Both the position numbers and the translations under genes were made by a program. From NCBI GenBank assembly GCA_946699065.1, contig CAMPDV010000145.1, positions 62,001 through 126,000 on the forward strand: 64,000 nt of DNA, written 5' to 3'. Source of the stretch: Loxodes magnus. Taxonomy: Eukaryota > Ciliophora > Karyorelictea > Loxodida > Loxodidae. Under the pieces are notes generated by a model. That model made no database searches. It worked only from the letters and a program-made list of their open reading frames with translations, and was not told where the DNA came from. Position 1 is the first letter of the stretch. Every line of letters starts with the position of its first letter. Positions 13,851 to 43,720 of this stretch are shown in pieces.

Positions 13851-14239
13851 ATGAAATTTAAAAAAATAGATATTTATATTTGGCTATTTTTAAAAAGTAA
13901 AGAATGAAATCTCTCTTCAATTTTTTTCGTGATAAATGGAATAAATTCTAATTAGTTAAGGAAAAATATTGAAAATATCTTCACATTTTAGATTCGGAGC
14001 TTATTATTAAAAAATCGATTTAAATAATTGCAGAGTAATAACAAAATAAAAATGTTTGGTAAAATTGGAAATAAAATATAAAAATAAATTTTATTTAAAA
14101 AGTCTAGAAGAAAGAAAAAAGCAAAGATAAACAAGATTTAATAATTATTTCAATATTTAGTAAAAAGAAAAGCAGATAACTATGCATAAATTACTAAATA
14201 AGAGTAGTTTAAAGCAATTAAAGACTCAAAATCAAACTT

Positions 14240-17221: not shown

Positions 17222-18283
17222 TCACTCTGCTATCTTCCACTTTCTCAAAGTATTGTCCTATGCTCCTGATACTATCCATTTATTATCCTTACTTAATGCT
17301 ATAGATCTTATACCTTCTTCATGACCTTAAAGAGTCTAGATACATACACTTGTTTTAAAGTTCCATATTTTTATAGTTTAGTCATAAGAGCTAGTAATAA
17401 TAATGCTTGAATCATTACTTATCTATGCATTTGATACGCCATCTGAATGACCATAGATAGTTCGAATACATTATCCGGTTTTAAAGTCCCATATCTTTAC
17501 CTTATAATCTCGACTTCCAGATATGATTCATTTCTGGTCATTTGATATCGCAACCCAGAATACATAATTTGCATGTTCTTACAAAGTATTCTTTAACTAA
17601 CCATTTGTAAAGTCCCATATCTTTATAGTCTTATCATAACTTCCAGATACGATTCAGTTCTGGTCACTGGATATTGCTACAGAGGATATATATTTTGTAT
17701 GTCCCTTCAAAGTACTCTTTAAATAACCTGCTGTAAAATCCCATATCTTTATAGTCTCATCATCACTCCCGGATACGATTCATTTCTAGTCACTTGATAT
17801 CACTACAGAGTTTACAGAATTCGTATGTCCCTTCAAAGTATTCTTTAACTAACCAGTTATAAAGTCTCATATCTTTATCATATTATCTCTACTTCCCGAT
17901 ATGATGAATTTCTGGTTACTTGATATCACTACAGAGAATACCCAACTCGTATGTCCCTATAGAGTACTCTTTAACTAGCCAGTTGTCGAATCCCATATCT
18001 TTATCGTACTATCCATACTTCCTGATACAATTCATTTCTGGTCACTTGATATAGCTACAGAAGTGACTTGGGAAGTATGGCCAGATAAAATTTTATCTAA
18101 ATATAAAGAATTACTCTAACTATGATCATAATTGATTTTTTTTACAAGTTTTAAATAACACAAGTTGGGTAGGACTTCATATTTAAAAATAAGAAGCGGA
18201 ATTCTACCTAAGGAGTCATTTCTTTATCTTAAAATAGTTCGTAAAAAGACACTCTTAATAAACTGTATTTCTTTACTCTTCAT
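17222..18283 (-). CDS. WD40 protein, single seven-bladed propeller
   Basis: Predicted 347 residues: exon 1 is 18283-18115, exon 2 is 18096-17222, and the 18-nt intron is 18097-18114. The intron is divisible by three and open, so it could be read through. I call it spliced because its position and phase match introns in the two sister genes, giving INYDHSQ then DKILSGH. A short basic leader (MKSKEIQFIKSVFLRTILRQ) precedes seven WD40 repeats of 42 residues with near-consensus motifs (VAISSDQKWIVSGS, TIKIWDF). The Trp of DQKW is TGA in the early repeats and TGG in the last ([16 protein letters not shown]), just before the TGA stop at 17224-17222. Likely a scaffold or recognition domain; partner unknown. 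Belongs to the minus-strand WD40 family of this window. Confidence 0.85.
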
Positions 18284-18944
18284 TTCTATTTTTAAAATTA
18301 TTTTAACAATTGCTTAGTTATAGCAATTCTTCTTAGAAATTAAAATTAATTCTCTGATTTAATTCAATACAATAGAGTATTTATAAATATGCATATAAAT
18401 ACATTATCATTATATCTTAATTTTAAATCTTAAATCCTTCTAATTAATTTGAACATAATAAAAATATTCTAGCTTTCTTTATATTTTTCTTAACATTTTT
18501 ATATTAATTAAATTAAGTATAATGCATTATTCATTATATTTTCAATTTTTGCTAGAAACCAAACTGTTTTGAAATTTAGTTTAAGAGCTTTAAGGCTAAT
18601 GCTAAACTTATTTTTACGCCTTAATTACCTGTTGTTTAATATTTACTATATATAAGTTTTAAGTTCTAATCTTTTACTTAATTGTTAAATTTGCTTCGAT
18701 CTTTAAATAAAATTTATCTTTCAATTTTTAACTATTTTTTTTATTTCTATTTGTAAAGGTTTTTAGTTTATTATATAGTGCTGCTAACTTTAATTAGAGA
18801 TATATCAATTTAATAAGTTTACTATAATAGATGTAAAGTATAAAACTCTAATTAAAGAAAAGTTTAATTGATTGTAAGTAAGATAAATTTCTCTATTGAG
18901 AAAATAAGTATAAAATCTTTTATCTTTGCTCTTTACTAATAAAA
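18284..18944. other. intergenic, no supported gene
   Basis: AT-rich upstream region of the WD40 gene. I see no recognisable promoter element. Confidence 0.45.
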
Positions 18945-19245
18945 AATATGTAATAAATAAATGATATTATAGAGTGTATAACATCTCAATGGTGCACAGC
19001 TCTTTAATAAAGAGTTTTTAAGTTAAAAAACCTTACTGAAGTCTTTCACATTGCTAGCGTTCCCTTGTGAGTTTTGTCTTCTATAGGGCTGCGATCGGAA
19101 TGTTACCTTAAGAGACCTTAGTATTTGGTATCTTTTATCATTAATACTACTTTATGCCTCTTCAATCTTGTCTTCTCTTCTCTTGGCTGGTTCTTCACCT
19201 ATGGGTACTTCCTGGTACTAGAGTTTAAGTCAGTTTCAGTTAAAG
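18945..19245 (-). mobile_element. LINE 3' end, 5'-truncated copy
   Basis: On the minus strand this runs from GAGTTTAAG-type sequence near 19230 (complement of TACTTCCTGGTACT...GAG) to the tail at 18945-19000, where GTGCACCATTGAGATG precedes CTATAAT and an ATTTATT-like tract. The same order is seen in the plus-strand LINE at 26310-26630, with TACCAGGAAGTACC at one end and GCGCACCATCGAGAG plus CTCTATAATCA at the other. Only the last 300 bp of the LINE are present, the usual 5' truncation of LINE copies. Divergence between the two copies is high, so this is an old insertion. Confidence 0.65.
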
Positions 19246-20329
19246 GATTGCTCCTCCCTATTTATTATATTTATAATACGAATTTCTTATTCATTTGTTT
19301 TTGCTTCTTTTTAAAAAGCTACGTACTAGCATATTAAATTATCGTTATTAATATCAAATAAACTTTTCTTGTTCACTTTACAGTAATAAAAAGAAAAATT
19401 ATCTTCATAAGAAACCTATTTAGGCTAATCTCTCATTAGTTTAAATACTCATACCTTTGTTTAGTACATATTATTAAAAAACTATCCCAAATAATAAAGA
19501 CAAAACTAATTGCATTATCCTAAATTATTTTAAATATACAACTTGACTACATAATAGATTAGTAATTATAGTTTTTGCTTTAAATTTCTTACTTCAAATT
19601 TAAAATTTTTTAATTCTAATTAGTTGATAAATTTTGCTTAAAAAATTTTATATTTTTGCATTTTCTTTTTAATGAATTTTCATATCTTTTATTATAATTT
19701 CGCTTTTAGCTTAATTTTTCCAAAACCATATTTATAAATAATTTATTTGTTACGTTTCTTTTTTCCATTTCATAATTTTTTTGGAATTATAAGTGTCCTT
19801 AAATCAAATTGGTAATATCAATTTTTATATAACTTTTTTATTCTAGGTTATTAAACGTTTAACGCTTCTATATATTAAAGATTAGATGTCTTTTTGTATT
19901 AAATTTATTATTTTGGAGTTATATTTTTTCTATAATTTCAATCTATTTTTCTGGTTTTATTAATAAATACATTATATAATTATTAATATTATGCTTTATT
20001 TTAATGCTTTTATTTATTTTTTAAATATCCACTAAATTTATAAAATCCTTTTTTCTTCGTTTTTTCGTTTTTATATAGAAATGTTCTTTTTAAAAATTAA
20101 AGCTAATTCAAATAATTAATTCCAATCTCTAATTAATTAAGCATTTAGCCATATTTTTATAATAAATGGAACTAAAACATTTTTTTAAAGTCTAAATTTA
20201 GTTAAATGCTTATGCAATAATGCTAATATTTATAGAAAGCTTCAATTATTTAAAATTTATAAAATTTTTCTTTTAAACATTTCTCAAAAAAAGGTCTTAT
20301 TAACTTAACACAAATATAAGCTTGATTAT
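19246..20329. other. intergenic, no supported gene
   Basis: AT-rich spacer. Nothing supportable seen. Confidence 0.5.
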
Positions 20330-21160
20330 TTTTATAATAATAATAATAATAATATACTTAAAGTTATTAAGGTTTTGCATTTCCTGGAATTTCGACCAGT
20401 TCCTGCGGACATTTTTTTAAACGTGGGTGTGTTCCACGACCTTTTTTGAAAGTGGGAGGTTACCACTATAGACTTCCAAGTGGTCTTGCGAAGAGTTTTT
20501 ATTTATAAATCCCAGTTTGCGTTATCCATAGTTTGTTAAATTGTCTTCATGTTCTTTTCTGCTCTTATTCGTTTATTCTCTTTCATTATCAGCAGTTTCT
20601 TAATAAATGATTAATTGATTTGCAATATCAGCACAGTTTATTTTCTCGTTTTTTTTCGTTCTTTTTATCTAAAGTTTATTTTCTATTTTTTCTAATCTTT
20701 AAATGAAGTTCATATCGATCATTTCTTTTCCTGGATATTATTCTACTTTTGAGTATATTGGTGTTTTTTCTATTTCCATTTTCGTGTCATATTTAAAGTT
20801 TTATTGTGACTAAGTTCAGAGTTGTTCTTCCGTTATCAAATTGCTTTGAAAGAGCTATCTTCTGAGTATTAATAATTCATTGTTTTAATCCTCTATGTTA
20901 TTCATTAATTCCCTTATTTTTCTCCTTAGTTATAACCTGTTTCTTCATACTTTGAAATTAATTTTTACATTTGATCTAATTAAATTTAAAGTTTTTGATC
21001 AACTTCGTTTTTAGGTTATCTTATCTCTATCTCTATAGGTCCTACCATCACTTTACCTTCTGATGACGAACTTGACTACTCTCGTTGCTATTTTTTTTCT
21101 AAATTTCTTTTGCCGCTTTTCTCTTTAGGTTTTTAAGTTAATTCTTTGAGAGTCGAAGAG
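20330..21160 (-). mobile_element. second retroelement relic with ORF1/gag-like CCHC protein
   Basis: Same layout and strand as the element at 11.8-12.7 kb. The minus strand encodes charged, partly coiled-coil-like sequence. Near 20.62 kb there is a zinc knuckle (CWYCKSINHLLRNC, C-x2-C-x4-H-x4-C). A GC-richer, apparently non-coding 3' part (20.37-20.50 kb) follows, and the element ends in a (TTA)n tract at 20.33-20.36 kb. No reverse transcriptase is recognisable. As with the first copy, a LINE-type ORF1-only element is favoured by the simple-repeat 3' end, but a Gag origin cannot be excluded. Fossil; not intact as far as I can see. Confidence 0.55.
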
Positions 21161-21539
21161 ATTAATCCATTTTTTCCTTAATAATTCAATTATTAATTGA
21201 TTATTTTTAAATTTTCTCAATTTTAATGGAATTATTTAATCATTCTTAGATTAAAATTGAGTCTAATAATTACTAAATTTACTAAATTAACTAATTTTTT
21301 GATTTAAAGGCGTTTTAATCATTGTTTGAATCTCATAAAACTTAGTAATTTTTTCTATTATTTTTCGCTAAATATTCCTAATTAATTAATTATTAAAATC
21401 TTTTAAGTATCGCTAGTTTAAAAGATTATATTAATTTCACTAATAAATGAGATATAATTTTATTATACTATTATTAATTAAAATTATTAAGTAGATATAA
21501 AATTAATTACTTCTTTTATAATACTAAAAGTTTCATTTT

Positions 21540-21900
21540 TAGATTTTAATTTAACTAAAAGAGTATTGTAATGTCTTTTCATTGTTGCAATTACTTCCTT
21601 CAATTAAAGATGTTCTAGTGTTTATTTAAAGTTTTCCAATTCAAATAGTTTCTACTCTATCCTCTTCTTCTGCTAAATCATCTTCATCTTCAGTTTATTA
21701 CTTCAAATCTTCCACTTTCTCATGTTTTCTTCTTGCTTTTCTTTTCCTTCCTCATTTTCATCATTCTCTTCACCCTTTTCTTGCTCTTTCGCTTCTTTTC
21801 CCTAAGTCTCAGAACTTTATTATTATAAGTTTTTTTCTAATCCAAATATCTCTAATCTCCTTTTAAGCTATATCATATGGAAAATTTAAATGTGCAGATC
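21540..21900 (-). other. coding-like acidic/basic low-complexity region
   Basis: The minus strand gives Glu/Lys-rich sequence in two alternative frames (EKGEENDENEEGKEKQEE in one, QQTEDEDDLAEEEDRVE in another). Base composition suggests coding DNA. I could not settle the frame, start or end, and such repetitive GAA/AAG DNA can look coding by chance. No domain recognised. The stretch from here to 22700 shows nothing else. Confidence 0.25.
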
Positions 21901-22699
21901 AATGAATTCTATTTGTTTTTTGGAAATTAATTGATATAATTTTGGTAATATATTATTAATTTTCTAATTGCATTTTCCAATCTTACTATTAACCATTCTC
22001 GCATATCTGAATAGCATTCGCTTTCCATAATATGTTCATATTAATCAAATATTCCACAAATATAATGGGAATCTCAATTAAATAATGACCTTCTTAAATG
22101 TCCTTGCGAAAGTTGTAACTTAAGATTCTGAGTTTATATACTAATTATTTATATTGGATATTATTTAATTTTGGATAGGTAATTTACTGTAGCTATTATT
22201 ATTTTTCTAATTATTCTATAGTTAACTATTCAGTTAGCATCCTTTTTAGTCTTTAAATAGTTACTTCAAAAGTTAACGTTAAATCTTGCTTTTAGCTTAT
22301 ATTGTAAAAGTATTAAAGCTACTATTATATTTCCTAACATTCAGCTAGTCATGTTACTTAATTCTATATTAATATCCTTCTTATCAATTTTTCTTAAAGC
22401 AAGAGATAGTTTTATCTAATTAGACAATTTAAATAAAAAATAAAGATTTCTTTATGTCAGAAGTTTCTCAACTAAATATAGTAAATTAAGATAAGCTAAT
22501 TTAAATATAGCTTAATTAATATGAATTATCAACTAACTATTTTAATATAATAGTACATAGTTATTAATCATGTCAGATAGAATTACATGATAAGATTCCG
22601 TTAAACTACAGCATTAATATCATTAACTGAACTAAATCTCGTTTAAGGTATCTAAAATATGTATATACAATTGATAAAATGCGAGAGTTTTAAAGCTTA

Positions 22700-25600
22700 A
22701 TTCAAATATTAAAAAAGATATATTAATTTTTCTAATGAAAGTTGGTAAAAGGACTAATAAACTAAACAGATCTAATTGATGCTATTTAACAGAATTAAAC
22801 TTAAACTTTCAATAGTAAACTTAATATTCTTAAATGAAACATGAAGAGAAAGGTAAAAAGTTATACCAGCAAAACGTATGAGTACATAATAATAAAAAAG
22901 GAATGTGATTAAATAATATGCTACTTCAATCTAACTGGTTTATAACTTTAAAAATTTATTAAATAAGAAACTTGAAGAAATCCATAGTATGAAATGTGCA
23001 ATATATGGTAAATATACGTCAATCAATTAAGAATTAGAATAGGGTACTGTAGATTGTGTAAAAAGTTAATTTAATATAGATAAAAAATTACTTAAAAATA
23101 TAAGATTTAAGTAATATATATTTTGAGCAATATTTTCATTAGCATCCTAAACATGGAAAAAGATTAGTACACATTTAAATTAACTAATAAGGATAGAAGA
23201 GTATCTGTATTTACGAAAGTGAATTATGATTGGAAAAAATTAGAAAAGACTAATGAACTAAAAAATTAAAGATGAGAAATATTAATTGATTATCTAGTAA
23301 GTATTTGAGTATTGAAGAATTTATCAAAGATTTCACCTTTTTTTAGTTAGTCACATATTAGTTTATAAAATGAGTTAATTCTCAATAATCATCTTCTTCT
23401 TCAAATTGAACTTATATTATGTCTTGCCTTGCTTTTTCCTTCTTTTCACTGAGATTTGCTTGTATAAGCTTTCCTTTGCATTTCCTAGCTCTTTTAAGAA
23501 TGTATTCTTTTAATCTTTATTTATTCTGATGAATTATGATTTCATCAAATTGTTAAATTAGAACACATACTTTTTTTGAAAGCTCTTAGACTGCTAGAGT
23601 TGAAGATATTTATCATTTAGTAGATGCTAAAGATTTATTTTGTTTCTTATTATATTTTATTGATTGGAGATTGCTATCTTTAAGGTACCATTTTATATAT
23701 AATATTTTACTCACGTCTTGTTACATATCTGACAGCGGAAAAAGTTAGTATGTTAAAGGTTAAGCCTATGAACATATAAATACTGATGAACTAATAGCAA
23801 TAATCCACATATATTGATAAGAGAATTAAACACTCTTTTGTAAGATTTAGAGACAATCTTGAAAATACTTAAGATAATATCTAGTAATTATAAGCATTTT
23901 TATTATAAAGGGATCTTGATATAGTGAATGATAGTAGCATTAGGACATATATATATACAAAGGAACAGGAAAAATGTATTGTAATGATTATATCATAAAA
24001 CCCTTATTAGTTTGCAAATTTATCTGCTAATAATAATAATTCATTTTCTGATAATATTCCAAATACTGTTTACTTTATCCATAATTCTATAGTCTATTGG
24101 GAAAAGATAACTGTAATAAAATATAAATTTAGTAGGTTATAAAATGCAATAGATAGACAAAAATATTAAGAGGCTTTCCTGTAAACTCATATAGAATTCT
24201 TTAAGATAGATTAAGATATACTTAAATTATTAATATGAATGCATTTAAACAAATATTCAGGATTAAACAGATTAAACATTAGAATCATTTATTTCAAATT
24301 ATAACAATCTTCTTCGTAAAATAAACTAAGAAATATAAAGAAATCAAAAGGGTTAATGTATAAAGAATCTCACATTAAATTGGAAGAATAAACTAATAAG
24401 TAACTAATCTTCATGAAACAGCGGAACAGTTTTGAAAAGGAAGTTAAGTATAATATATGGGAATTTAAAAATAAAACAAAGTTTCTAGTTCTAAATAGAG
24501 ATGCTTAGAGAAGCTTTTTTCTCAAGATAAGAAAACTCTAAATTCTAATAATAGAAACAATATGAACTTCAATTAAGAAATCTAAAATAAATTAATTGAT
24601 TCATGGGAGAATCGGGTGTTTAATAAGCATTCTAATATAACTCTATAATAGATAAATCTTAGTAAATAAAAAATAGATAAAATTAGTATTTAAGAAATTA
24701 AAGATTATTCACTCTCATATTAATAAGAATTTAATCTATTACCATACAAAAAATATAAGAAATTATAAAAGATATTCCAAATTAAAAAGCAGCTAGTCCA
24801 GATGGAATAAAAGGTAAACTTATAAAATAACGTGGGTAATATCTGATAATAATTCTTCACTCTTTTCTGAATAATATGTTAAGGCTCAGAAGAATTCCTT
24901 AAGAATTAAATAATTCAGTGATAATTACAATATTTAAAAAAGGAAATTAAAATGATTGGAAAAACTGACTACCTATTTCTCTTATTGATACTATTCTAAA
25001 ATATATGACTAAGCTTTAACAAAAAACTTTACATTTTTTATTTATTAGAGAAATTTGGTTTACTCTTCTAAAATGGAATCTATTAAAAAAATACTTAATA
25101 GATTAGGGTAACAGATATTTGATAAAAAATCGGAAATGCGCAAAGGGAAGACTAAATAGATCGTAACATTATGTTTAAAAAATGTTTGACTTAATAGAAA
25201 GAAGGCTTTCATTTAAATAACTTAAGAGAGTCAAACTACCATTTGGACTAATAAAAGCCTTAGAATAATTTTATTAAAACCTAAATTATTCATTTATGAT
25301 GTTGGTAGAAATACTAGAACACTAGCACATTATAATACAACAATGAAGTTATGTAAGAAGTTCATATGGATCAGTTTTACAATTAATTATTAGAAAATTA
25401 AGCTTTTGTTTAAAAAGAGAGAGTTACTTTTTAAGGAGTTAATCTAAACAGAGAAGAATTCCCATTGCAAAAAATCATATTTAATCATATAACTGCAATG
25501 AAGAAAGTTGTTTTTTAATTGGTGAGATATAAGAATAAACTTATTTGAAGGTTTAAACTTTATGCCAACTTTTCATATTGCCTAGAGCAGAATATGGAAG

Positions 25601-26630
25601 AGAACTAGTACCATGGTGTATTCAGAAGAGAGTAACTGGAGTTTTGAGTAAAATTTAATTAAGTATGAAAATGATTTTAAGAAAAGCTTTTTAAGTAGCA
25701 ACTTCAACATTTAATGAGTGATGCAATATACCTGAATTGATTATTTTTTAGGCAAATTATGGTAATAAAGATCATTAAATTCTACTACAAAATGAAATAA
25801 GAAAGTATTGATTTCCAAGATCGACAAAAGGCTCTCTTTAGTCCTTTCAGCAATTTTCTTTTACTATCATTCCTTTAGAAAAAGCAAATGTTTAATTTTT
25901 TCAAAAAACTTAATTTAAAAAAAATTTATGCTTACCTTTTAAAAATTGTCTAGCTTTTAAATGTAAATAATATAGAAATATTTTTAAATTTGTTATGATA
26001 ATACTGATAAAAATCTTCTAATTAAATTTTCTAAAACTTCAAATTAAAAAAAATTTAAAATTAAAAGCTAATAAAAATGTTTTAAGCATAAGTTTCAATA
26101 AGAAATGTTGGATACGAAAAAATTACTTTTGCATTTAAATTAAAAACTATCAAAATTGCTATTTTTATTTCTAAATTAAAAAAAATGATTTCAAACAGAA
26201 ATAAAAAGACCATCCTCAAAATCTCTTATAGTATAAGCACTGAGTAAAAAGACTAATAAATGTTTTTTTATTTATTATTTATTATATTTTAAATAGAGAG
26301 AAGAAATCCTCCAATTGAGATTAACTTAACTCAAGTACCAGGAAGTACCTCTGGAGCGACAAATTGAGCAAGAATTTTGGCAGGAATCAAGCAGAAAAGA
26401 ACTGGAGGTATTGAGTAACGGTTGATGAAGGTTTCCAGACGACTAAGTCTCTTTTTGGCATCCCTCCGACCATGCCCTATTATAAGACAGAATTTCCAAA
26501 GGATTGAAGCACTGGAGGAAACTTCCAAGAGAAATTTATTGGCTTTAAATAAAATTAATTTAAAGAGCTGCGCACCATCGAGAGTGTTACGAGCTCTATA
26601 ATCAAATTTATTTATTTATTTGCTAAAAAT
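22700..26630 (+). mobile_element. LINE (non-LTR retrotransposon) with EN and RT parts
   Basis: An APE-type endonuclease fragment is visible near 22.75-22.9 kb (LSIVNLIFLNETWRERQK; the LNETW block is typical of LINE endonucleases). A reverse transcriptase in one continuous frame covers about 24.7-26.1 kb: IQEIIKDIPNQKAASPDGIK, then ITIFKKGNQNDW and LPISLIDTILKYMTKL, and further on LIKALEQFYQNL and GSVLQL. The C-terminal region of LINE ORF2 follows (RAEYGRELVPW, KRVTGVLSKIQLSMKMILRK). The YADD active-site block is not recognisable and the frame between EN and RT is not continuous, so the element is dead. The 3' part (26310-26630) ends in GCGCACCATCGAGAG, GAGCTCTATAATCA and an (ATTT)n tail shared with the SINEs. 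About 3.9 kb; the 5' limit is uncertain. Confidence 0.75.
26565..26630 (+). repeat. shared LINE/SINE 3' tail signature
   Basis: The sequence GAGCTGCGCACCATCGAG, then GTTACGAGCTCTATAATCA and a run of ATTT units. Related tails occur at about 13785-13850 (+), 18945-19010 (-), 44030-44090 (-) and 44410-44480 (-). Conservation of only the last 60 bp between otherwise unrelated elements suggests the recognition site used by one reverse transcriptase. Confidence 0.65.
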
Positions 26631-26825
26631 ACCTAAATTTTTTAATTATAATAAGTAATTATAAGATACTAAAAAAATAATTTCTTTACATGAAATGTAT
26701 TTACCTTTAAAACTTAAAAAAAGTATCTTTATAAAATCTTTCTAATAAAGATATTTAATTGCTTTTAAATCAATTTTTATATAACTTCTTAAAGTAAAAA
26801 AAGTCTTATAAGTTCTTACCTCCTC

Positions 26826-28300
26826 TCAATTCATAATCTTCCATTTTCTCACAGTATTGTCCTCAGAACCTGATACGATCCATTTATTGTCCTTACTCAA
26901 AGCTATTTATTTTATTTATTTTTGATGAACTTAAAGTGTCTATATACATTCACCTGTATTAAAGTTCCATATCTTGATTGATTTGTCCCATGAGCCAGAA
27001 AATATAAACCTTGAATCATTACTAAGTTGAATACTAGATACTGTTTATGAATGACCTTTGAGAGTTCGAATACATTATTTCGTTTAGAAGTCCCATATTT
27101 TAATTGTACAATCATCTGAGCCTGATATTATATACTTATTATCCAGTGACAAAATTGCAGATGTAACCTTGCCTTCGTGTCCAGTTAAATTTTTAAATAA
27201 ATTGCCAGTTGTAAAATCCCAGATATTTATTTTCTTATCATTAGATGTTGATATGATTCACTTCTGGTCATTTGATATCGCTACAGAGTTTACAGAGTCC
27301 GTATGTTTGCTCAAAGTTTTATTTAACTAACCAGTTAGAAAGTTCCAAATCTTTATCGTCTTGTCCTAACTTCCTGATATGATTCATTTCTGGTCACTTG
27401 TTATTGCTACAGAGTTTATGGCTTTTTAATGATTATCCTAAGTTTTTTTATAGCTTTCATTCTGCAAATTCCAGATCTTTATCGTGTTATCATAATTTCC
27501 TGATACGATTCATTTCTGGTCACTTGCTATTGCAACTGAGTAAACTGAATAATCATTTCCTTTCAAAGTTTTCCGACTTCCAGTCTAGAAATCCCAGATT
27601 TTTATCGTTGTATCTCCACTTCCCGATACAATTCATTTCTGGTCACTTGATATCGCTACAGAGTATACAATATTTGTATGATCTTTCAATTACTAGTCTA
27701 AATTAAATAAAAATAATTACCTTTAGTATCGTCATAATTGATTTATAAATTTGCTAAAAAATAAGTTTCATTCATTAACTTATCTTATTTCACTATAGCA
27801 TTCTTACTTGTTTCATTTATTAACTGTTTTACTTCGAAAGCTTAATCATTAATAGTTTTTATAATACTTGCCTAATCACTCTCACTTTTATCTTTGGCTA
27901 CATTTATCAGTTATGATAAATTCTTATATGTACTGTCTAACCTATTAGATATGTATTACTTTTACTATTAGCTTGTAATATTTGTTATATACTCTAACTT
28001 CATTTATATCTCTTAAATTATCTGTCCTTTAAAACTTATTAAACTACTTTCATTTTCTTGAGTCAAGTTCATTACCTATTAGTTCTCTTACTATGCCTCA
28101 CCCATTTTATCTTTCAAAAAATGATAAATATCATTTAATGTATTCTATATCCCTTATACTTGATTATTTTTTTCAATTATTTTATTATTAATCATCTCTC
28201 AATTTTCTTTTGAAACTATATTAATCCATAGAATGATTAATGCTTAAAAAAGGATAGATATTATAACTAAAACTGTTATAGCAATTATCCATTTTTTCAT
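26826..28300 (-). CDS. membrane-anchored coiled-coil WD40 protein
   Basis: Predicted 483 residues: exon 1 is 28300-27721, exon 2 is 27697-26826, with a 23-nt phase-1 intron at 27698-27720. The product begins with a basic start and one hydrophobic segment (KKWIIAITVLVIISILFQAL, residues 2-30), so it is probably an uncleaved signal anchor. About 150 residues of Gln/Asn/Lys-rich, heptad-like sequence follow, likely a coiled-coil stalk. INYDDTK then leads across the intron into seven WD40 repeats ending RKWKIMN. Trp is TGA in repeats 1-4 and TGG in repeats 6-7; the stop is TGA. No catalytic domain is present. The architecture suggests a membrane-tethered binding protein with the propeller on a stalk; ligand unknown. 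Same family and strand as its WD40 neighbours. Confidence 0.85.
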
Positions 28301-32190: not shown

Positions 32191-33180
32191 TAACCAGTTC
32201 ATGAGAGTTATCTTCTCAACAAAAAAGACCGTGAAGCCCAACCATGCAAAAAAATAGTGGTAGCTGCGACCAGGTTTCAAATCTTGTGATTGACAAAACA
32301 ATTTTATTAACGTATAAGCATATTATTATACAATTTTTTAATATTTTTATCTTTAGTAGAAAAAAAAATTAAAAGAAAATAAAATATTAGAAAATAATAA
32401 TACGATTTGTAATTATTAAAGTTTTACATCAGAAAAGAAACTTTATAACAGAAACTTTCATTCATAAAAATATAAAAGATTAAATAATTATAACTTGTAC
32501 ACTTAAAAAAGTATTAAACTCTTCTAAAGTTTTAAATCTTAATTTTTCACTTAAATATCTAATAATTTTTCCTTTATTTTTAATTATTCTTATTTATAAA
32601 CTTAAACACTATTTTCAATCCTCAAAATTTATCTATAATCTTAACTTATCAAATAAAATATTATAATAATAATATTCAAATTAAATTATCATATAAGAAT
32701 TCCTAAATATCCATTACATGCTTAGAAAATGATTAAATCTTCTAAAGTCTAAAAAGTTACTAAACATATACACTAATATATTTGTTAATATATAAATATT
32801 CTATTGTATAAATAGTTTATTATATAAGCATATTAATATATAAATATGCTAATATTAAAGATCAAAAACATATAAGTATATTGGTGTATAAGTATATCAA
32901 TTTATAAATTATTAAATATAATAGCATATTAGTATAGTCATATATGAGTATTTTAGTATATTAGTATATTAGTAAAGTAGTATTTTGATTATTTAAGAGT
33001 TTTAGTACTTAATTAATTAAATATAAGCATATAAGAATTAAAAAATTTAAGTATCAGATTATTCAAGTATATTACTCTCTCAACTCATACTTCTATTCAA
33101 GTCCTCCTCATTCATCTAAATGTTATCAGTTGAACAGATTCTCAATTTCAAACCATAATTAGCATACATAGTATTTCAAT
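32191..33180. repeat. AT-rich spacer with degenerate TATTAGTA-type repeats
   Basis: The part from about 32760 to 33080 is built from short, degenerate units such as TATATAAGTATAT and TAGTATATTAGTATATTAG. It is low-complexity DNA with no gene. The rest of the stretch is ordinary AT-rich spacer. Confidence 0.55.
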
Positions 33181-35353
33181 TCACCTACTTATAATAAATT
33201 TAATGTAAATAATACTTACCTTCTATGCTTAATTAGTAGAACTTTAATCTTAACTCAACACTCTCTAAATATTCCATTTTCTAAATGTATACTCCTTATC
33301 TTCACCTTCATATCACCAGAATTCCCTTCTTGATACTAACCATCTGTCATCATTAGATATGTCCAATGTTCCCACAGTCTCAATATGCTCCAATAAAATA
33401 AGGATATATTAACCAGTTGATAATCTTCAAATTTTAATAGTCTAATCATTAGAATCAGATATTATATAGTTGCTACTCGTAGATATCTTAAGGGCTGTTA
33501 CGTGACTTGAATGACCTTCAAGAGTTCAATGTAACTGACCAGTTTGGAAATCTCAGATCTTTATCATTGTATCTGCACTTCCCTATATAATTTGTTTCTG
33601 ATCACTTGTTATTACTACCGAGAACACTCAATACGTATGTCCAGTTAAAGTTCTCGTACAACTTCCAGTCTGGAAATCCCAGATCTTGATCGTTGTATCT
33701 ACACTTCCCGATATAATTCATTTCTGGTCACTTGCTATTACTACCGAGTTAACTGAACTCGTATGCCCAGTCAAAGTTCTTAGGAGGGTAGCAGTTTCAA
33801 GATTCCAAATTTTGATTAAATTGTCTCGACTTCCTGATACAATGAAATTAGAGTTTGGGGATATAACTAAGCAAAAAATTTTGTCAGTATGACCAGAAAT
33901 AATATGGGGTTGCTCAGTGGTTAAGTTAATAAGTTTGACGTTATTCATGGTACAGTTGATGAACTTGGTGTTTCGTAAATTGCATAATTGTAAGTTTGAG
34001 TTTGTGAAGTCACAATTTTTAAATATAGTATCGGATAAATCTGCATTAGTTAGGTTAATATTACTAAAATTAATTTGATTGAAACTGTAGTTCATGCAAT
34101 TAAGTATTGTAATCGTATTGGATACTACAATTTATAGATTTATATTACTCTTCGAATACTCATATGCTTGATTCAATTTATTTTCTAAATTAAGGTCCTT
34201 AGTTTCACTTAACTTCAGTAGCAAATGAATTTAAGTACCAATATATTCATTGTTCATTAGTCCTGTATTTAATGATTCCGTGTCTAAGCTTTAATTCGTA
34301 AAAATTGATAGATATTCGTGAAATTAAACAAAATTCATCCTGCTGAAATATAATATTAGCCATTATATTTAAGGTCTTTTATTTCCAAGAAGTAAGTCTG
34401 CTTATTGAGTCTATTGCTACTTTTATTCAAACTTTAAGTTCATTGGAACTTGAAACCAATTACTTTATTATCTTTACTGAAGCTATAAATATTTTAACTA
34501 TTATTAATAAAGCTTGACTTAAGCTTATTGATCAAGTTGCTTCTATCTTTTCACACACTCACTTAAGATTTTTTTAATTTATTCTATTTCCATTCTATTG
34601 ATTGCCTCCTAAACCCAACATTCATTTATGACATGAGCATATTCCTCTGGACAATCTGTTGGTATATCTTCCCTACCTCCATTCAGTATTTAATATATAA
34701 CGACTTATTCGCTATTGTCTTTGAATGGTAATTTTTAAGTCGCTATTTTCCAAAACACAATTCCTATCCCATAAATGTCGGATTATTCACTTTATTACGG
34801 ATTCTTCTTTAGTAACTCGGGGACCATCCATCGTATTGTCCCAGCTTATGTCTAAGTATTCAAAATTTTTGACTCCGACTTTATCCTTGCCAATCCTAAA
34901 CCAGTTATTTTAGTAATGTTATTGCTATCCAACAAGATGTTTTGGCTCTTTAAGTCTCGATGTAATATTTTCTATTTGTGAATGTACTAAATACCAATAA
35001 CTATATTTAAGCTTATTTAATATTTCATCAACCATGATATTTCTTGACTACTATGCAAAAATTAGAATAAAGACTACTTCATTAATTCAACACTAAACTT
35101 AAAGGATTAGGACAGCATCTGTATAATAGCACAACATTAGGATGACGTAATTTCTTCAGAATCTATAATTCTTACTGAAATTCCTTATTGGTATTTAGCT
35201 ATTGAATTTTTAAGAGCAATTATTTTATCACAACCTCAGTTACTCCTAACCAAATTCCTTTATAACTGTTCCAAAACTACCACTATTTATTTCCTCACCT
35301 CTCTCTAAATCCTCATTTTGTATGATGAAATCTTAATCTAATTCAGATTTCAT
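33181..35353 (-). CDS. kinase-pentapeptide-WD40 fusion, probably pseudokinase
   Basis: About 724 residues if two single-base shifts are allowed. It starts MKSELDQDFIIQNEDLERGE. The kinase domain (residues 20-285) has the glycine loop GSFGTV, the VIK lysine, HRDLKSQN and IRWMVPEL. The DFG motif reads GLG (ITGLGLARI), so the metal-binding Asp is gone. A Gln-rich helical linker follows, then pentapeptide-like repeats at about 33.9-34.1 kb (NINLTNADLSDTIFKNCDF). Five WD40 repeats end in a degenerate last one. There is no intron at the kinase/WD40 border. The frame slips by minus one twice in the kinase, near 35190 (after GTVIK) and near 35030 (after PLSLV). Everything from there to the stop at 33183-33181 is one frame. 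Either a decaying gene, a pseudokinase, or two base-call deletions. Sister of the gene at 41853-43720. Confidence 0.72.
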
Positions 35354-35689
35354 TTATAAAAAAGAAAAAATTGACTATTAATTACAAAAAACTAATAGAT
35401 CCAGTATTTTTATATCAGTTTCTAGCCATAATAGATATAATTTCTTTAATAATCTAAAATGATTATCCTTTATGATTACCTTTCAAGTATAAATTGATGA
35501 TATTATTTTATAACGAAAGCTTTAAAAAATTATTAAGCATTTTATTACTATACTTACTTAACTTACTCTATTTAACGAAATTTAAATAATCAAGATAGAT
35601 AAATTCTCTCCTGAATATATAAGAATTGAATATTATAAATATTAAGATTCTAAAATAACTGAATTATTATAACCAACAAACATATCAAC

Positions 35690-38300
35690 ATGAATAGAAA
35701 TAATTACACTAGCTTACCTTTTAATTGCCTTTTTAGGTATCTAAACATAATAATAATTTAGCAAAACTTTTTATTAAAACAAATCTGATTAGTTAAAGAA
35801 TAACTATTAAAGCTCCTTTTTTCAATTTTAGACTAATATAACAACAAAATAGAAAATTAGATTTCTTTGCTTAAATCTTATTCCAAGTATTTTCTATTTC
35901 TAATTAATTTAATTCAAATTTTGTAGTTAAAGAGACATCTTGTAATAAGCTTAGACTGTTTATAAATAAAAGGTACAAAATTTACAAGCGAAAGCAAGAA
36001 TGATAATTGGATAATTTTATGAAATTGGAAGATAGCTTTAATAATATGAATTAAAGATAGATCTTTACACTATGTAAATTAATAAAGAAAAAGAGTATCA
36101 TAAGCAATTAAAGCTCTCACTTAAATAAGTTCTAAAACACAACAAAGTATTACAGTTTAATCTCTCATTTCATAAGTTAGAGGAAATGCTTCTACCAACT
36201 TGAGAAATAAAATAGGGCAAAGGTTCTAATTAGCTTTAATTATAAGTTTAAATTAAATATTTAAGAATTTGAATTTGATAGAATATAGATCTTTATTATT
36301 AATGACTGAAAATAGGAATAAGGATTCAGTCTTATCTAATATAGAACTTACGCTTAAATCTTAAAGCTTATTTTTGATTACTTCTATAATAAATGACAGA
36401 CCATTTTCTTATTCTATATGATTGGATAACAAAATTTTAAAAGTAATTTAAATATTTAAGTAATTTGTAGAAAGCAATATCTAAATAAATCAATAAGACT
36501 AATTAAACACTTAGGTTCAAATAAATAGAAAGTTAATTTCTTAAATTAAAATATATTAAAAATAAAATTTTGCCAAATTTGACTTGGAAATCCAAAATCA
36601 AATTCTTAGAATTTTATGATAGAATTTCAAAGATAATGGTATTATTTTTTGATATTCCAAGCTATGCTATGAAGCAGAAGAAAAGTCGTTAAATTTAAAT
36701 TGGTACTTACTTTTTTGAAGTCTGATTGAGTGTACAATGTGTATAAAAAGCTCTTACAATTTAATCTTCAGTACTAAAATATTCAAAACAATATTCAGAG
36801 ATTTGGAGAATATGGTATAACGTTTATGCTTATGAACAATATTGAAACAATACCGGAAGAAGAATGTGAGTAAGATCTCTATCTTTTTTCTAAAATGAAA
36901 GATTACTAGTATAATTTATATTCTATAAGAAACTCAGACTTAAACATGAAGCTTAATGAAATAACGCTGCAATCTTAAAAAATAAAATTATATTTGCAAG
37001 CATAAGAAATAAATATTATCTGATAAGTAAATTTTATTAGGGCAATTAAGAAATTATTAAACTGGAGGCATATACCTTTCATAAAACAATGCAGATTAGG
37101 GTAGTTACGACTTATGCTGCTTTGATAGAATTTAAAATTTAAATTTGATGATTTTGACTTACAATAAATCATCGAAGCAAATTTATAAGTAGAGAGTGGA
37201 AGTTATCAGCAGCATTGATGGAAGAAAGAAAAAAAAAAGCCAAAAGGAGTAGTTTTTAATACAATATAGTTGCTAACCAATTTTCTAGATTATTCTAAGC
37301 TTTACAATTATTCTGTAAGTAAAGCCTCTAGAAGATATTTGCAATCTAGCTTACCTCAAATTATATCCGAGCTGTATCAAGTCATTTAAAATAGGCTATT
37401 TTAAAGTTAAATTTAACAGAATTTTTATAGCAAACTCCAAAGCTTACTTGAAGTATTATATTAAAAGCTGATTTAATAAAACTTCTCTCTTATAAAATCA
37501 CTAAATAACCTATTAAATTTACATAGACTATATATTATAAAATTCTTCTCTGACATTTAAAAAAATAAGATCTAAGGTTACCTAATTTCAACAAATATTA
37601 AGGAAAATTTCTAAAAACTATAGAAATATAAAAGAAACAATTTAAAGCTTTAGATTTACTCATTAGTTAAATTTAAGCTTTATACTTCCTTAAAAAGTAT
37701 AAATGAATTATTATAAAGAGTAAGATTCAAATTTAATCACTTTTTTATTAAATGGAGTTTGTAAAGAAATAAAATTGCATATCTGATATAATGCTTTAAG
37801 ATACGAAAACTCATTTATATGACTAGCTTAAAATACATGGCTAAGCAATATATAGCAGATAATATTTAATTATTATTGATAAAGTTGAGTACAATTTTAA
37901 AATGATTAATAAAAGATTTATTGGCAAAGACTGTATGAAAACCTTTATTTATAATGCGAAATATGCTTTACATTATTTTTTAGAGATTAATAGGGCTTAT
38001 GTGTGCTTTTAATGAGGCTTGTCTTGAAGATTATTGTAAATCTAGCATTTGTTACAAATAAATTTATAAAGGAAATTTATTATTAAAACCTAAATTACTT
38101 AATTATATAAGAAACTAAGACGAAGAATAACAAAAATCTACTTACACTTAAAAGCATTATGATAGCAAGCTCATAGCAATTCATTAAAATAATTTTGGAT
38201 TAATTAGAGAAGCAAAAACTACAACATCATTAGAGATAAAGGATTCATATTAATGAAAGGTATTAAGCTAAACAATAGTAAAAACAAATAAAAGGGATTT
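35690..38300 (+). other. unresolved coding-like region, Gln/Lys-rich
   Basis: At least one plus-strand frame is open over most of this stretch, and short segments look strongly protein-like: QINKEKEYHKQLKLSLKQ near 36090, IEYRSLLLMTENRNKDSVL near 36290 and MNNIETIPEEECEQDLYLF near 36840. A 20-nt GT...AG intron at about 36247-36266 would join the first two smoothly. I could not settle the frame beyond 36.8 kb, nor the start or stop, and I recognise no domain. Because only TGA ends frames in this code, long open stretches also arise by chance in such AT-rich DNA. Probably a real gene of unknown function around 35.8-37.3 kb; the part beyond is doubtful. The gap between this and the kinase gene start (35353) holds nothing I recognise. 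Confidence 0.35.
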
Positions 38301-38479
38301 GTTTCTTTATTTATGTTGTTGTTAAACTATTTACTGAAAGAAGATATACCTAAAACCATAAACTCAGTTAAAAGTATAGGTTTATTTCTATACGTTATTT
38401 TCCAATCTTTTTAATTGCTTTAAATAATGAAATGTATTAATTATATTTTTAATTGTATTTCTAAAGCATACCATTTTAA

Positions 38480-39440
38480 GATTCTAAAATATAAAATCTG
38501 GCTTCAAGAAGGGATTTTGTACCACTTCCTCAGATCAGGAGAAAAAACCAGAAGCATCTTTTCTTATAACGTTTCGGCCTTAATTAGCTCATTCTTCTTA
38601 AGGCCAACAATTGAAACTTAAAAAACTAAGAAATAAAATCCTCGATAAAATAATGTAAAGTGATTTTCTTCTTTCAACTGGCAAATAAGTGCTGAAGAAA
38701 TCTTCGAACAGTAAAATTAGCACAGATTCCAACGACTTCACTAAAAAATGGAAAAAAGATCACTTAACTGAATCTCTGAAAGTATTAAATAAAGAAACAA
38801 AAAATAAAAAAATAATTAAAAAATAATTCCATTTAAACCCTGATACTTTTGATTTAGATAATATCGAAATAGGACAAGTGGACTTTTAACAGATGATACA
38901 GTTAATATATCAATTTATAAAAAAAATAAAAACATTCAAAAAAAATTAAAACTTAAAAAAGGGAAAAATATTTTTAAAAAGTCAGAACCTCGTTGAGATA
39001 CAGATATAATGAAGTCCATATGGTAGACTGAAGAGTCAAATACGGAGTCTATGATAGAATGATAGAGTTAGAGAATTATATTTAAGTAATGAGATAACAA
39101 GATAAGAAAATTAAGTTTAATTAGATTTAAAACTAAATTAATAGAAGAAGTTTGCAGAAACCTTCATAAGGAACTCCCATAGAAAATAGAAAAGACATTT
39201 CCTTAAACAAGAAAAAGATGTTACGTTTGTAATAGAACTTTACATTTGAAGTGAATAAGAATGAATATTTGGAGAAATGTAATTATTAGCAAATGAAGTG
39301 AAGAACGACGAAATTCTTTCCATCAGAAAAAGAGAAAATTTGAAAAAAACACAAATTCTTAACTTAGAACATAAAAAGAGGGAAATCAAGAAAAAATGTA
39401 ATAAAATGATAGAGCATGCAATAAAGGAGATTTCATACAT
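38480..39440 (+). mobile_element. third ORF1-like remnant with partial zinc knuckle
   Basis: A slightly GC-richer plus-strand region encoding hydrophilic sequence (for example LNPDTFDLDNIEIGQVDF near 38.85 kb). This is followed near 39.22 kb by a partial CCHC-type knuckle (RCYVCNRTLH) and a Lys/Glu-rich end (about 39.30-39.43 kb). The order resembles the two minus-strand CCHC elements at 11.8 and 20.3 kb. I see no (TTA)n tail and no reverse transcriptase. A fossil of the same general type, assigned with low confidence. Confidence 0.4.
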
Positions 39441-40845
39441 TTAATTTTCTAGTTAAAAATTGAGTAAATTAAGTTTTTTAATTAGATATATCATTTAACA
39501 ATTTTCCTCAAATAAATTTATTTTATTGATATTAAAAATAAGTAATTTTGTGAATTAATCTTTTAAATTAAAAATTTATAAACATGTTCTTTTTATTTTT
39601 AAATATGTAAAAGAATTGCTTCCATTTATATACAATAATAATAAAAAATATTAGTTTAGTTTCATCATAAAAATCATTGATAACAGAAAACGCTTAGGAA
39701 AGAAGAAAATTCTTCTTATTTGAGTAAGATTAATTTTCATATCTACAAATTAAAAACACTTAAATAGTTCATAAATTAAATTTATATTTTACCGCTATTA
39801 TCTTTTTTAAATTTTTTTATTTAAAATACAATATAAGAATTTTATGCTTTTTATATTGTTAAATTTTATAACCTATTAAATTTAAAAATTTTTATGTTTG
39901 TTTTTTACATACTAAAATAAAAAAACATCTAATATGTTTTTTTATATTTTATAATTCAGGATTTCTTTCTATTTTTCTGCTATCACAAAAATCTATAAAA
40001 TTCATTCCGTCCTCATTCTCTGGTAGTATAAAAAGTTGAGAAAATTTTTTTCATATTAAAAGCTTTTTAACTACTCCTATTTTCTTGGTTTTATCACTAT
40101 TTACTCTTATTTTTTTCTTTAAATTTTAAATTTTTTTTTTTTCTCTCTTAAAAATATTTAACTTACAATTTGATTTCTATATTGATATAAAATAATTTAC
40201 ATTTAATTTTAGTTATATTTTATACTTTTTTATATAATAGTAAAAATAAACTATTTAATCTCCTTTTTTGATTTGCTAATTTATTTTAGAAATAAAAATT
40301 TAATTATTCCATTAATTGCTTTTAATTTCCTTTTTTCCAATTTAAATTTTTTATTTCTAAAATTAAAAATATTTTGTTCCATCTTAAAAATATTATTGAT
40401 ATAAATGCAATGCAAACAACTATTTTATTTTCATAAACTTCTAAAACTTTATATTTCTCTTTCCACTTTTAAAGATTTTGAAACATTTGATAAATTTACT
40501 CAACTAAAAGACCAAATTTTTGCATCCTATTTCTTTATTAACTAAAAGTTTATTTAGAAGCGAAAAAATCTTTTTAAAAATTTTATTTACAAAATTTTTG
40601 TTCTAAAAAATTATTTTTCTATTACATAATTTTTATATATAATTAATTCCAAATCCTATTTAATTACTCTCAAATTTAAATTTTAAATCGTCCACAATTT
40701 CCTTATTCTATAAAACGCTTTTCAAAAAAGGAACAATTTCTCACGAAATATAATGCTTTTATTTCCAAGTTTCCTATAATAATTTCTATTTTACTTTTTT
40801 ATTCTTTTTTATAAAAGCTTTTAGAATAATTAAAAAATAGAATTT
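39441..40845. other. intergenic, no supported gene
   Basis: Extremely AT-rich with long T runs. Nothing supportable seen. Confidence 0.55.
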
Positions 40846-40849
40846 TTAA

Positions 40850-41145
40850 ATAATTGAAAAGATGGTGGGAGCTGAGAATGCCTTCGTGACAACACTTTCT
40901 GGTTTTATGGCTAGGAACAAGTTCCTTTCCTGTCGCTGAGAAAGTCCCTGGTCAGAGTCATTTTCTGAAGGGAACACTGTCATTGAGATTATCCGCTCTT
41001 GGTAGGGGCTTAAAGCCTGGCTGCTCATAGCGATGGAGCTCCCTAGCAGCTGTGCCTGGAGCACAACAGGATATCCCCGTTATTCCATAAAAAGAGAGCG
41101 TCGGGTCGTGCAATCGGAAAGGAGTTTCCGGTTCAAAAACTTTTT
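40850..41145 (+). ncRNA. candidate structured RNA in a GC-rich island
   Basis: About 285 bp close to 50 percent GC, standing alone in DNA of roughly 15-20 percent GC. It contains several perfect short hairpins: CGGAAA-GGAG-TTTCCG near 41115, AGGAA-CAAG-TTCCT near 40915, ACTTTCT pairing with AGAAAGT across 40898-40948, GGCT-TAA-AGCC near 41010, and GCTGCT pairing with AGCAGC across 41018-41051. The plus strand runs into CTTTTTT at about 41137, a possible RNA polymerase III stop, preceded by GGTTCAAA, which is B-box-like. In AT-rich genomes such isolated GC islands are often non-coding RNAs. A 72-codon minus-strand frame also exists, so a protein or foreign insert is an alternative. I could not match it to SRP RNA, RNase P RNA, U3 or telomerase RNA. 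Strand is a guess. Confidence 0.4.
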
Positions 41146-41852
41146 TAATTGAAATTAATTAAAAAATAGAATTTTTTTTATTTTTCATTTTATTATTAAT
41201 AAGCTCTTTTAAAATTTACAAAATTTATACTATGATGTACCAAAAAATTTGCTGATATAGAAAAATTATAATTAATAAAATTATTTAAAAACTTTTATAA
41301 AAACCAAATTTACCAAATTAATAAATATGTCATATGCTTTCAACCGAAAAAAATTTATTAAATATTTTACTGAAATATATTATTTAGTTCAAATCAAAAT
41401 TTCTATAGCTCATCGTAAAAACCTTCGAAGATAAAAAATGAGGAGCTTAAAAGCCTACAATTTTTTTGCGAGTCTTTTAGCAAATAAAATAATATTTATT
41501 TAAAAAATAAGTTTTCAAATTTTTAGCTTTTAAATAAATAAGTCTAGTAATATTTTAATTCTAAATTTAAACACTGATATTTATATATCTTTTCATATTA
41601 ATTACTTTTTTATGTTAAATGTATTATTTTATAAGGATTACTGTATTTAAATAGAAAATATTATGTTAGAAATTAAATATTTAAAGCATTAATCTATAAA
41701 CTTAAAAACTATACACTTTTTATGAAGTTAAACTTAGTTGCATATCTTTATTTAGCAACTTTACACTTTTTTAAATCAACTAAAATAGATTACTGATTTT
41801 AATTCATTTTTTAATTAGCTTCTTAAATTGTAAAATTTAAATTCTTAATAGT

Positions 41853-43720
41853 TCATGATTCTGTTTAACTTGCGATCTTCCACTTTCTTATCATTTTGTC
41901 ATCCGCACTTGATACTATCCATTTATTGTCCTTACTCAATGCCACAGAATTTAAAGCCTTATTATGACCTTAAAGAGTTTATAAACAATCACCAGTACTA
42001 AAGCTCCATATCTTAATGTAATAGTCATGCGAGCCAGAAATTATAAAACTTGAATCATTACTAAGTTGAATACTTGATATACCTAATGAATGACCATTAA
42101 TAGTTCGAATAAGTTGACCAGTTTCCATGTCCCATATCTTTATTGACTTATCTCAACTTCCCGATACAATTCATTTTTGATTAGAGGAAAAAGCTACAGA
42201 TTTTATTTGACTAGTATGCCCCTAAAAAGTACTCTTTAGCTAACCAGTTGTTAAATCCCATAGCTTTATTGTTTCATCTTTACTTCCTGATAAGATTCAT
42301 CTCTGGTCATTTGATATCGCTACAGATAATACACAATTTGTATGTCCCTTCAAAGTTTTCTTTAACTAACCATTTAGAACGTCCCATATCTTTATCTTGG
42401 TATCTCCACTTCCCGATACGATTAATTCCTGATTAGAGGAAAAAACTACAGACCATACTTACTAAGAATGTCCTAACAAAGTACTCTTTAACTCACCAGT
42501 TGTAAAGTCTCATATCTTTATCGTATGATCAGAACTTCCCGATATAATTAATTTCTGGTCATTTGATATTGCTACAGATCTTACATAATCCGTATGTCCC
42601 TACAAAGTACTCTTTAGCTCACCAGTTGTAAAGTACCAAATTTTAATTGTATTGTCTTTAGAACCAGAGATTATATATTTGTTGTCAGGAGATATAGCTA
42701 CCGAGAAGATTCAATCTGCATGCCCTTGTATGACATTATCTGAATATTAAGAATTACCTTGTCTTTAATCGTAGTTTATTTACATTTTGGCTATTACTTA
42801 TGTTTCTTATGCTTATATTTTGCTTTTCACTTCTTCCAGCCGATCTAATCTTTTTGGTTAAGATGAAAAATTTTAAAAACCTGAAGATGTTGTATCTACT
42901 TGAATTGGGGATTGCTATATCAATTTTTCTAGCATGTTTTAAACAGTTAGCAGATTAGTCCTTTCAGCTGGATCTTATTTTCAACATCCTGATATTATTT
43001 ACTGATACACTTGAGGAATTCCTCAGGCATTTCCTCTCGTTCTCCAGCTCTTATTCCCTCTCTTATAAATTAATCATCAGCCTCACAGTGAGGTATTTTT
43101 CTAGCAGCTATTTCCCAAAAAATAACGCCTAAGGCAAAAATGTCAGACTGTTTGCTATATTTTGGTTTCATATTCATTAACTCTGGAGCCATTCAACGAA
43201 TATTGCCTACCTCTTATTTTGTCGTTAATGATTTTGATTCAGTCCTTACTCGAGATAAGCCAAAATCAGTTATTTTGGCTCTCAAATCCTTGTCTAGTAA
43301 AATATTATTACTCTTGAGATCTCTATGGATAATACTTTTACTATGGATATAATCTAAACCTAAAACAATGTCCAAACTGATTTAGTAACGTAAATTCCAA
43401 CTCAATTCTTATTAATTATGTACTAATTTTCACAAATTTTAAGGTAATAATTCCATTACTAAACACAAAGGAGACTAACAATATCCGTATACATTGATTA
43501 TTCTAGGATGTCTCATTTTTTAAGTCATCTTTATTTCGTTTTCAAAATCTTGCATTCCTTACTCAGTTAAACTTTGATTATACAACTCTTTTATCGCTAT
43601 TTCAATGCTTCCTTACATTAATCCCTTGTATACTACTCCGAAACTTCCCTTAGCTATCTCTTTTAATTTTTAAATCTTAGAGCTTTAGATGACATACTCT
43701 TAATCAAGTTACGAAACCAT
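41853..43720 (-). CDS. protein kinase-WD40 fusion
   Basis: About 616 residues: exon 1 is 43720-42758, exon 2 is 42739-41853, with an 18-nt phase-1 intron at 42740-42757. It starts MVSQLDQEYVIQSSKIQKLK, matching the start of the kinase gene at 35353. The kinase (residues 20-285) looks active: GSFGVV loop, IAIKEL lysine, [24 protein letters not shown] and the subdomain XI pattern ISGCWKQDPAERTN. RWMAPEL and CW-x2-DP resemble the tyrosine-kinase-like group. A short linker ending KMQINYDQRQ crosses the intron into seven WD40 repeats; the last has KDNKWIVS and the end is KIASQTES before TGA. One minus-one shift is needed at 42960/42961, where EEMPEE meets IPQVYQQ; an A seems missing from GGAATTCC. 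It may be a base-call deletion, a recent mutation or frameshifting. Likely a signalling kinase targeted by its propeller. Confidence 0.82.

Follow-up and report, generated by a model that had tools for sequence, protein, structure and literature searches.

A cluster of WD40 genes in the ciliate Loxodes magnus: candidate members of a modular binding-protein family with variable blade loops

A 64,000-nucleotide stretch of the Loxodes magnus genome (assembly GCA_946699065.1, contig CAMPDV010000145.1, positions 62,001 to 126,000, forward strand), here called the window, carries several genes for WD40 repeat proteins close together on one strand. The question raised by this locus is whether these genes belong to a recognition repertoire kept similar by gene conversion, as an initial annotation of the stretch had proposed. 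Four WD40 genes, named A to D, are present on the minus strand (17.2-18.1, 26.8-27.7, 33.4-33.9 and 41.9-42.7 kb) together with a relic, and their N-termini differ as described: a short leader in A, an anchor with a coil-like stretch in B, kinase remains with pentapeptide repeats in C and a kinase in D. What did not hold is that the units of these genes are very similar. The best reading is that the four genes of the window, of which one is probably broken, encode modular binding proteins from a large Loxodes family, and we lean towards a family in which propeller blades would be turned over and selected for a varied binding surface.

The similarity of the units was assessed on 63 units from nine seven-blade genes (A, B, D and the loci L029, L031 and L033-L036 elsewhere in the genome). 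This set excludes gene C as well as L030 and L032, two loci that are partial or duplicate. Over all blades the mean DNA identity was 0.606 within genes (189 pairs), and between genes it was 0.664 for blades in the same position (252 pairs) and 0.593 for other positions (1,512 pairs). Over the five core blades the same three classes gave 0.697, 0.691 and 0.677, with a slight clustering by gene that exceeded 2,000 label shuffles (p 0.0005). Nearest neighbours separate the core from the cap, that is, the last two blades. Of 45 core blades, 22 were nearest to a blade of another gene in another position, 12 to another gene in the same position and 11 to the same gene, and for the 18 cap blades these numbers were 2, 14 and 2. 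By these comparisons the cap evolves by position and the core mixes between genes and positions. Concerted evolution is not supported for the two C-terminal blades, which mostly group by position across genes; this is one part of the outcome that the initial annotation had named as evidence against its idea.

Near-homogenisation of the window cluster could be ruled out, with caps pairing mostly by position and core-blade DNA identities of 0.74 (A), 0.59 (B), 0.53 (C) and 0.68 (D). The corresponding protein identities were 0.64, 0.49, 0.47 and 0.57, and over all blades the internal protein identity of the window genes was 0.43-0.49. Homogenised relatives do exist elsewhere in the genome, namely the array-type kinase-WD40 genes, in which core DNA identity reaches 0.87-0.94 and the cap blades are divergent; their protein identity is 0.58-0.71 over the blades found and 0.81-0.89 on the core.

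The variable positions within the blade were compared with those known from fungi. In the WD40 repeats of Podospora NWD proteins positive selection has been described at codons 7, 9, 25 and 27, around the conserved codons 8 and 26 (PMC1805685); with an offset of 2, taken from our own alignment, these correspond here to codons 5, 7, 23 and 25. In the core blades of the window, codons 23, 5, 25, 7 and 4 take five of the top six places for replacement variability among the 42 codons, codon 42 ranking fourth. The variability ranks of codons 5, 7, 23 and 25 are 2, 5, 1 and 3 in the window (rank-sum P 1.8e-5), 3, 2, 4 and 7 in six window-type genes elsewhere (P 2.4e-4) and 10, 2, 1 and 7 in six array-type kinase genes (P 8.4e-4); taken gene by gene, P is 8.9e-6 for A, 0.01 for B, 0.0026 for C and 1.6e-4 for D, all these values being descriptive only, as unit pairs are non-independent. 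The ratio of replacement to silent change per site (pN/pS) at the four codons and at 37 others was 1.08 vs 0.47 in the window, 1.42 vs 0.50 in the window-type genes elsewhere and 2.90 vs 0.51 in the array-type kinase genes, where it becomes 3.62 with five codons (4, 5, 7, 23 and 25) and a slightly different core. An excess of replacement at these codons was found in the homogenised array-type relatives. Moreover, two close genes on contigs C512 and C620, with 95.8% identity over the 456 bases before the propeller and 90.8% over five blades, differ by 23 replacement and 3 silent changes at 25 hypervariable codons and by 16 and 16 at the other 185. The proposed surface diversification is borne out as to where the variability sits, which is in two blade loops, whereas the window genes themselves reach a ratio of only about 1 there.

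An AlphaFold2 model of gene D, built from three sequences, gives a seven-blade propeller of 28 strands with a mean predicted local distance difference test score of 90.8 and a predicted template modelling score of 0.87, and in it the linker residues 25-30 form the first strand. Counted on the model, codons 4 and 5 of blade 1 lie just before strand a, codon 7 at its start, and codons 23 and 25 in the loop that connects strand b to strand c. From this topology and from the fungal case (PMC1805685) we infer that these codons share one face of the propeller. The best matches to the model in the PDB are the WD40 domain of PkwA from Thermomonospora, with 34% identity in the structural alignment, and designed seven-blade propellers. 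Earlier literature describes how propellers are continuously amplified from single blades.

Turnover of the units is visible between two haplotigs. Contig C383 matches positions 13,156-47,312 of the window in three collinear blocks (99.2, 98.3 and 98.2%), and its gene C is exactly 126 bp shorter, two blades being read as one, so that one unit has been gained or lost; gene C is alone of the four in this, blade number being equal in A, B and D. The WD40 units of the two haplotigs differ by 20 replacement and 9 silent changes (pN/pS 0.61), counted without gaps over 25 of the 27 matches, with two gapped ones left out and one extending beyond gene A's presumed stop by five codons.

These results suggest the following model. 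In the members seen, a short linker connects a variable N-terminal module (kinase; kinase with pentapeptides; anchor with coil; short leader) with a WD40 propeller of seven blades, and in gene D this linker provides the first strand of the propeller. The last two blades make up a cap evolving by position. Ahead of it stand four or five core blades, among which unequal recombination or conversion could bring about gain, loss and exchange. Selection would hold the scaffold and favour change at codons 5, 7, 23 and 25, and less so at codon 4. As these codons are predicted to lie in loops of one propeller face, each protein may present a different binding surface, and ligand binding may recruit or activate the kinase. 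Recognition, be it of non-self, food or microbes, would be a reasonable inference. Of the initial interpretation, the loop variability, the differing N-termini, the unit turnover and the mixing of the core are retained, and homogenisation of the cluster and concerted evolution of the cap are given up.

The family extends over the genome, searched as a macronuclear assembly of 705,730,643 bases in 7,843 contigs. The linkage counts from the genome-wide match lists are lower bounds (the check misses gene B itself). The kinase of gene D has at least 150 scored matches including itself and its C383 copy (4,532 in a first look). A WD40 match is listed on the same strand, no more than 2 kb downstream, at no fewer than 20 of 107 typed kinase places, these two again included, and at least at 3 of 24 typed places of the coil stretch of gene B, which has 36 matches genome-wide, itself and C383 among them. 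Among single loci, a kinase stands upstream of WD40 units in the array-type L025 and L042-L046, kinase and pentapeptides in L029, and pentapeptides in L033, L034 and L035; no match above the curated cut-off was found in the approximately 1.0 and 1.2 kb upstream of L031 and L036. The 98,856 WD40 candidates of the first look are a loose figure and not a copy number. On contig C621, at about 37-125 kb, at least ten cap matches are listed on one strand, a larger WD40 cluster than that of the window.

The 126-bp WD40 unit is also found in giant arrays. It fills 10-kb slices of C1503, C119, C9, C6957, C1832, C620 and C272 and part of C4046 (loci L009-L024, L026 and L041), in arrays tens of kb long, and 17 array slices yielded 1,292 full units. 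Genome-wide, a 27-base pattern of type 1 occurs 2,009 times and another, of type 2, 1,648 times, with 0 occurrences of the reversed controls. Nine of the 17 slices have no frame change and eight have 2 to 11. In seven frame-intact groups the distinct units depart from the majority unit at codons 4, 5, 7, 23 and 25 by 602 replacement and 27 silent changes, the latter all from C620 and C272, and pN/pS at the other 37 codons is 0.16-0.31. An exception to this pattern is the intact slice of C620, where a single AAG/AAA difference at codon 25 brings the hypervariable pN/pS down to 0.71. In the two frameshifted groups, C9 and C620, the ratio at the hypervariable codons is 3.89 and 1.18, and at the other codons 0.42 and 0.30.

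The array variants were also sorted by frequency. At the 37 other codons (1,243 of the 1,292 units kept) the distinct variants, replacement to silent, number 65:20 among singletons, 29:10 among those shared by two or three units, 16:11 among those carried by at least four units at a frequency below 5%, and 34:30 among those at 5% or above; with a site ratio of 3.35 the matching pN/pS values are 0.97, 0.87, 0.43 and 0.34. Rare variants hence look neutral and common ones constrained, and sequencing or consensus errors would likewise give neutral-looking singletons. At the five hypervariable codons the distinct variants are 122 replacement to 3 silent. All three array ends seen (C9, C1503 and C4046) start or stop mid-unit in AT-rich DNA, with no kinase and no cap. 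The preferred reading of the arrays is that they are non-coding tandem DNA whose units would have been shaped by selection in genes. Giant WD40 proteins, suggested by the nine one-frame slices, were rejected as the principal explanation because of the ends lying mid-unit (three ends only), the neutral look of rare variants and the eight frame-changed slices. Template-directed hypermutation, like that of diversity-generating retroelements, was also discarded, the sets at codons 7 and 23 not being derivable, by inspection, from one template by adenine changes. In the arrays TGA encodes the Trp found at the variable codons 5, 7 and 41, as seen in L011, L014, L018-L021 and other slices, and TGG encodes the conserved Trp of the majority units at codons 17 and 30. 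In L011 (C1503:92001-102000) the hypervariable residues repeat in nearly the same order from one block of about 9-11 units to another, which looks like a sign of segmental duplication.

The alternative that survives best is an ordinary lineage-specific expansion of WD40-scaffold and kinase genes, with clusters made by tandem duplication and loops that vary as the least constrained parts of the protein, without any recognition repertoire. Several findings weigh in its favour and against selection for varied binding surfaces. The window ratio near 1 at the four codons would fit relaxed constraint, and between the haplotigs only 3 of 19 changed codons fall among codons 4, 5, 7, 23 and 25 where about 2.3 are expected, so there is no sign of ongoing diversification at these codons in this pair. 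In the penultimate cap blade of the seven genes compared the four codons also rank high (P 2.4e-4, pN/pS 1.25), and since this blade evolves by position yet shows the enrichment, the latter would be independent of unit exchange; in the last cap blade they are not enriched (P 0.09). In support of the expansion, WD40 and kinase genes are also reported among the expanded young genes of Tetrahymena. Against the preferred model itself it counts that, in the partly typed lists, the 2.5 kb upstream of 139 of 150 caps contain neither a listed kinase nor a listed coil, so that a kinase output may not be typical of the family. Nevertheless such an expansion, which we regard as rather unlikely, accounts poorly for the ratio of 2.90 against 0.51 in the array-type kinase genes, for the 122 replacement and 3 silent variants of the arrays, or for the 23 to 3 changes between the C512 and C620 genes.

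Genes and arrays share units, and the arrays might serve as an unexpressed store of core blades donated by conversion to the kinase-WD40 genes, in the manner of the silent cassettes of surface antigens. On C9 about 10.7 kb separate a kinase-WD40 gene from the array unit listed first, with similar distances on C1503 (10.7 kb), C272 (12.6 kb) and C4046 (10.5 kb, opposite strand). The first four units of the C9 gene match array units at 126 (C9), 125 (C1503), 124 (C9) and 121 (C9) of 126 bases, and the two that follow at 100 and 73. For core units of L043 (C272), L044 (C17) and L045 (C620) the matches reach 103-118, 104-125 and 112-120 bases, and for the window units 94 at best. A silent store would fit the identical C9 unit, the neutral rare and constrained common variants, the hypervariable codons with almost only replacements and the ends without kinase or cap. 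Passive amplification from genes would give much the same picture, with transfer possible in either direction, and we hold the store to be a speculative and improbable idea. If it were true, a single-celled eukaryote would keep a renewable library of binding-face blades.

That the family is largely decaying repeat DNA, in which genes and arrays are by-products of satellite amplification with few functional copies, would agree with the mid-unit array ends, the neutral-looking rare variants, the frame-changed slices, the disrupted gene C and the relic, but it appears improbable given that A, B and D each retain seven blades in frame and a common cap (D with kinase motifs as well), that genes show constraint at the codons other than the five (about 0.47-0.51) and that window units match array units so distantly.

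The modular binding family preferred here rests in the window on the features of Table 1. A profile built from six typed units was used in a six-frame scan with TAA and TAG read as Gln and TGA as Trp (E 0.05), and it gave 27 WD40 matches, all on the minus strand: seven each in A, B and D, four in C and two in the relic. The genes need in-frame TGA as Trp, and open reading frames with TGA as stop cut them into pieces. The published description of the 706-Mbp L. magnus macronuclear assembly gives code table 27, an intron mode of 17 bp and 231 Mbp of tandem repeats (PMC11441545). Of the 21 steps between units in A-D, 20 measure 126 bp and one measures 123 bp. By eye, gene C has a degenerate fifth blade downstream of its four clear ones, and A and D share INYD...NS in the linker ahead of blade 1, where B has INYD and the array-type kinase genes have QYDK.QGNS or a similar sequence. 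The N-terminal stretch of gene B matched no Pfam family. The kinase of gene D scores 3.3e-53 against PF07714 in a gene model joined across the candidate intron. The kinase frame of gene C is broken near 35.26 kb in both haplotigs and near 35.09 kb only in the window copy; the gene is probably broken.

Table 1. Features of the WD40 gene cluster, in window positions
Gene	Feature	Position	Strand	Remarks
Relic	Two WD40 units	14232..14437	-	Different frames; profile scan
A	Seven WD40 blades	17222..18082	-	Ends at presumed stop TGA 17222-17224
A	Short leader	18083..18283	-	Putative start codon
B	Seven WD40 blades	26826..27697	-	Ends at presumed stop TGA 26826-26828
B	Candidate intron	27698..27720	-	23 bp, GT-AG
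B	Hydrophobic anchor and coil-like stretch	27722..28300	-	Gln/Asn-rich
C	Four clear WD40 blades	33403..33894	-	
C	Pentapeptide repeats	33913..34095	-	PF00805, 1e-11
C	Kinase remains	34401..35353	-	Disrupted frame; DFG = GLG
D	Seven WD40 blades	41853..42725	-	Ends at presumed stop TGA 41853-41855
D	Candidate intron	42989..43008	-	20 bp, GT-AG
D	Most of a tyrosine kinase-like (TKL-like) protein kinase domain	43009..43720	-	PF07714; HRDLKSNN and DFG present

Fungi and bacteria provide the best-known WD40 receptors that combine high internal conservation with varied surfaces. A close parallel is the NWD/HNWD family of Podospora anserina (HET-D, HET-E), for which variability at the same four codons next to conserved ones, differences in unit number (as for the 126-bp unit of gene C), exchange between genes and varied N-terminal modules are described. 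Podospora proteins carry a NACHT switch, whereas the Loxodes members seen carry a kinase, coil or leader. Pfam found no NACHT domain in the window pieces scanned, which hold kinase or pentapeptides instead, and membership of the NOD-like receptors (NLRs) was rejected on this ground; genome-wide there are 31 weak NACHT matches (best E 6.7e-7), irrespective of WD40 linkage. The window genes are also far less homogenised, their core DNA identity of 53-74% lying below the >80% unit identity of the fungal genes, and the array-type relatives have 7 blades as against about 11 repeats.

Highly-Repetitive WD40 proteins, with high internal identity and diverse interaction hotspots, have been reported from prokaryotes, fungi and protists (Hu et al. 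2017, PMC5587647). The cut-off is an internal protein identity of 0.7, with 0.4 for moderately repetitive ones; by simple mean identity, used here in place of WDSP, the window genes fall below 0.7 and are moderately repetitive, and only the array-type genes reach 0.7 on core blades. Long non-genic arrays are not mentioned in the sections of that article considered here. A kinase followed by a seven-blade WD40 domain is known from PkwA of Thermomonospora curvata (PMC6113231), which is bacterial; this order is found in gene D and the six array-type relatives and not in A or B. Among ciliates, the leucine-rich repeat (LRR) genes of Tetrahymena with 90-bp exons are a comparable large and young repeat-protein family, for which unequal crossing-over has been proposed and recognition suggested, WD40 and kinase being listed among the expanded domains (PMC6564038). 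The LRR exons are separated by introns, whereas the 126-bp WD40 units of Loxodes lie within one exon. WD40 is not mentioned in the main text of the L. magnus genome paper (PMC11441545), and the titles and abstract openings of the papers found, subscription papers and preprints excluded, gave no description of a karyorelict or ciliate WD40 family like this one.

In Loxodes the same four surface positions vary as in the fungi, some members carry a kinase in place of the NLR switch, and the unit is found in arrays as well, which makes a clear case of repeat units common to constrained genes and neutral tandem DNA and a possible test case for a protist recognition system of genes plus reservoir. 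Compared with the known systems, the Loxodes WD40 family is real and structured; the logic of its surface is known, and its host, output module and genomic setting are new.

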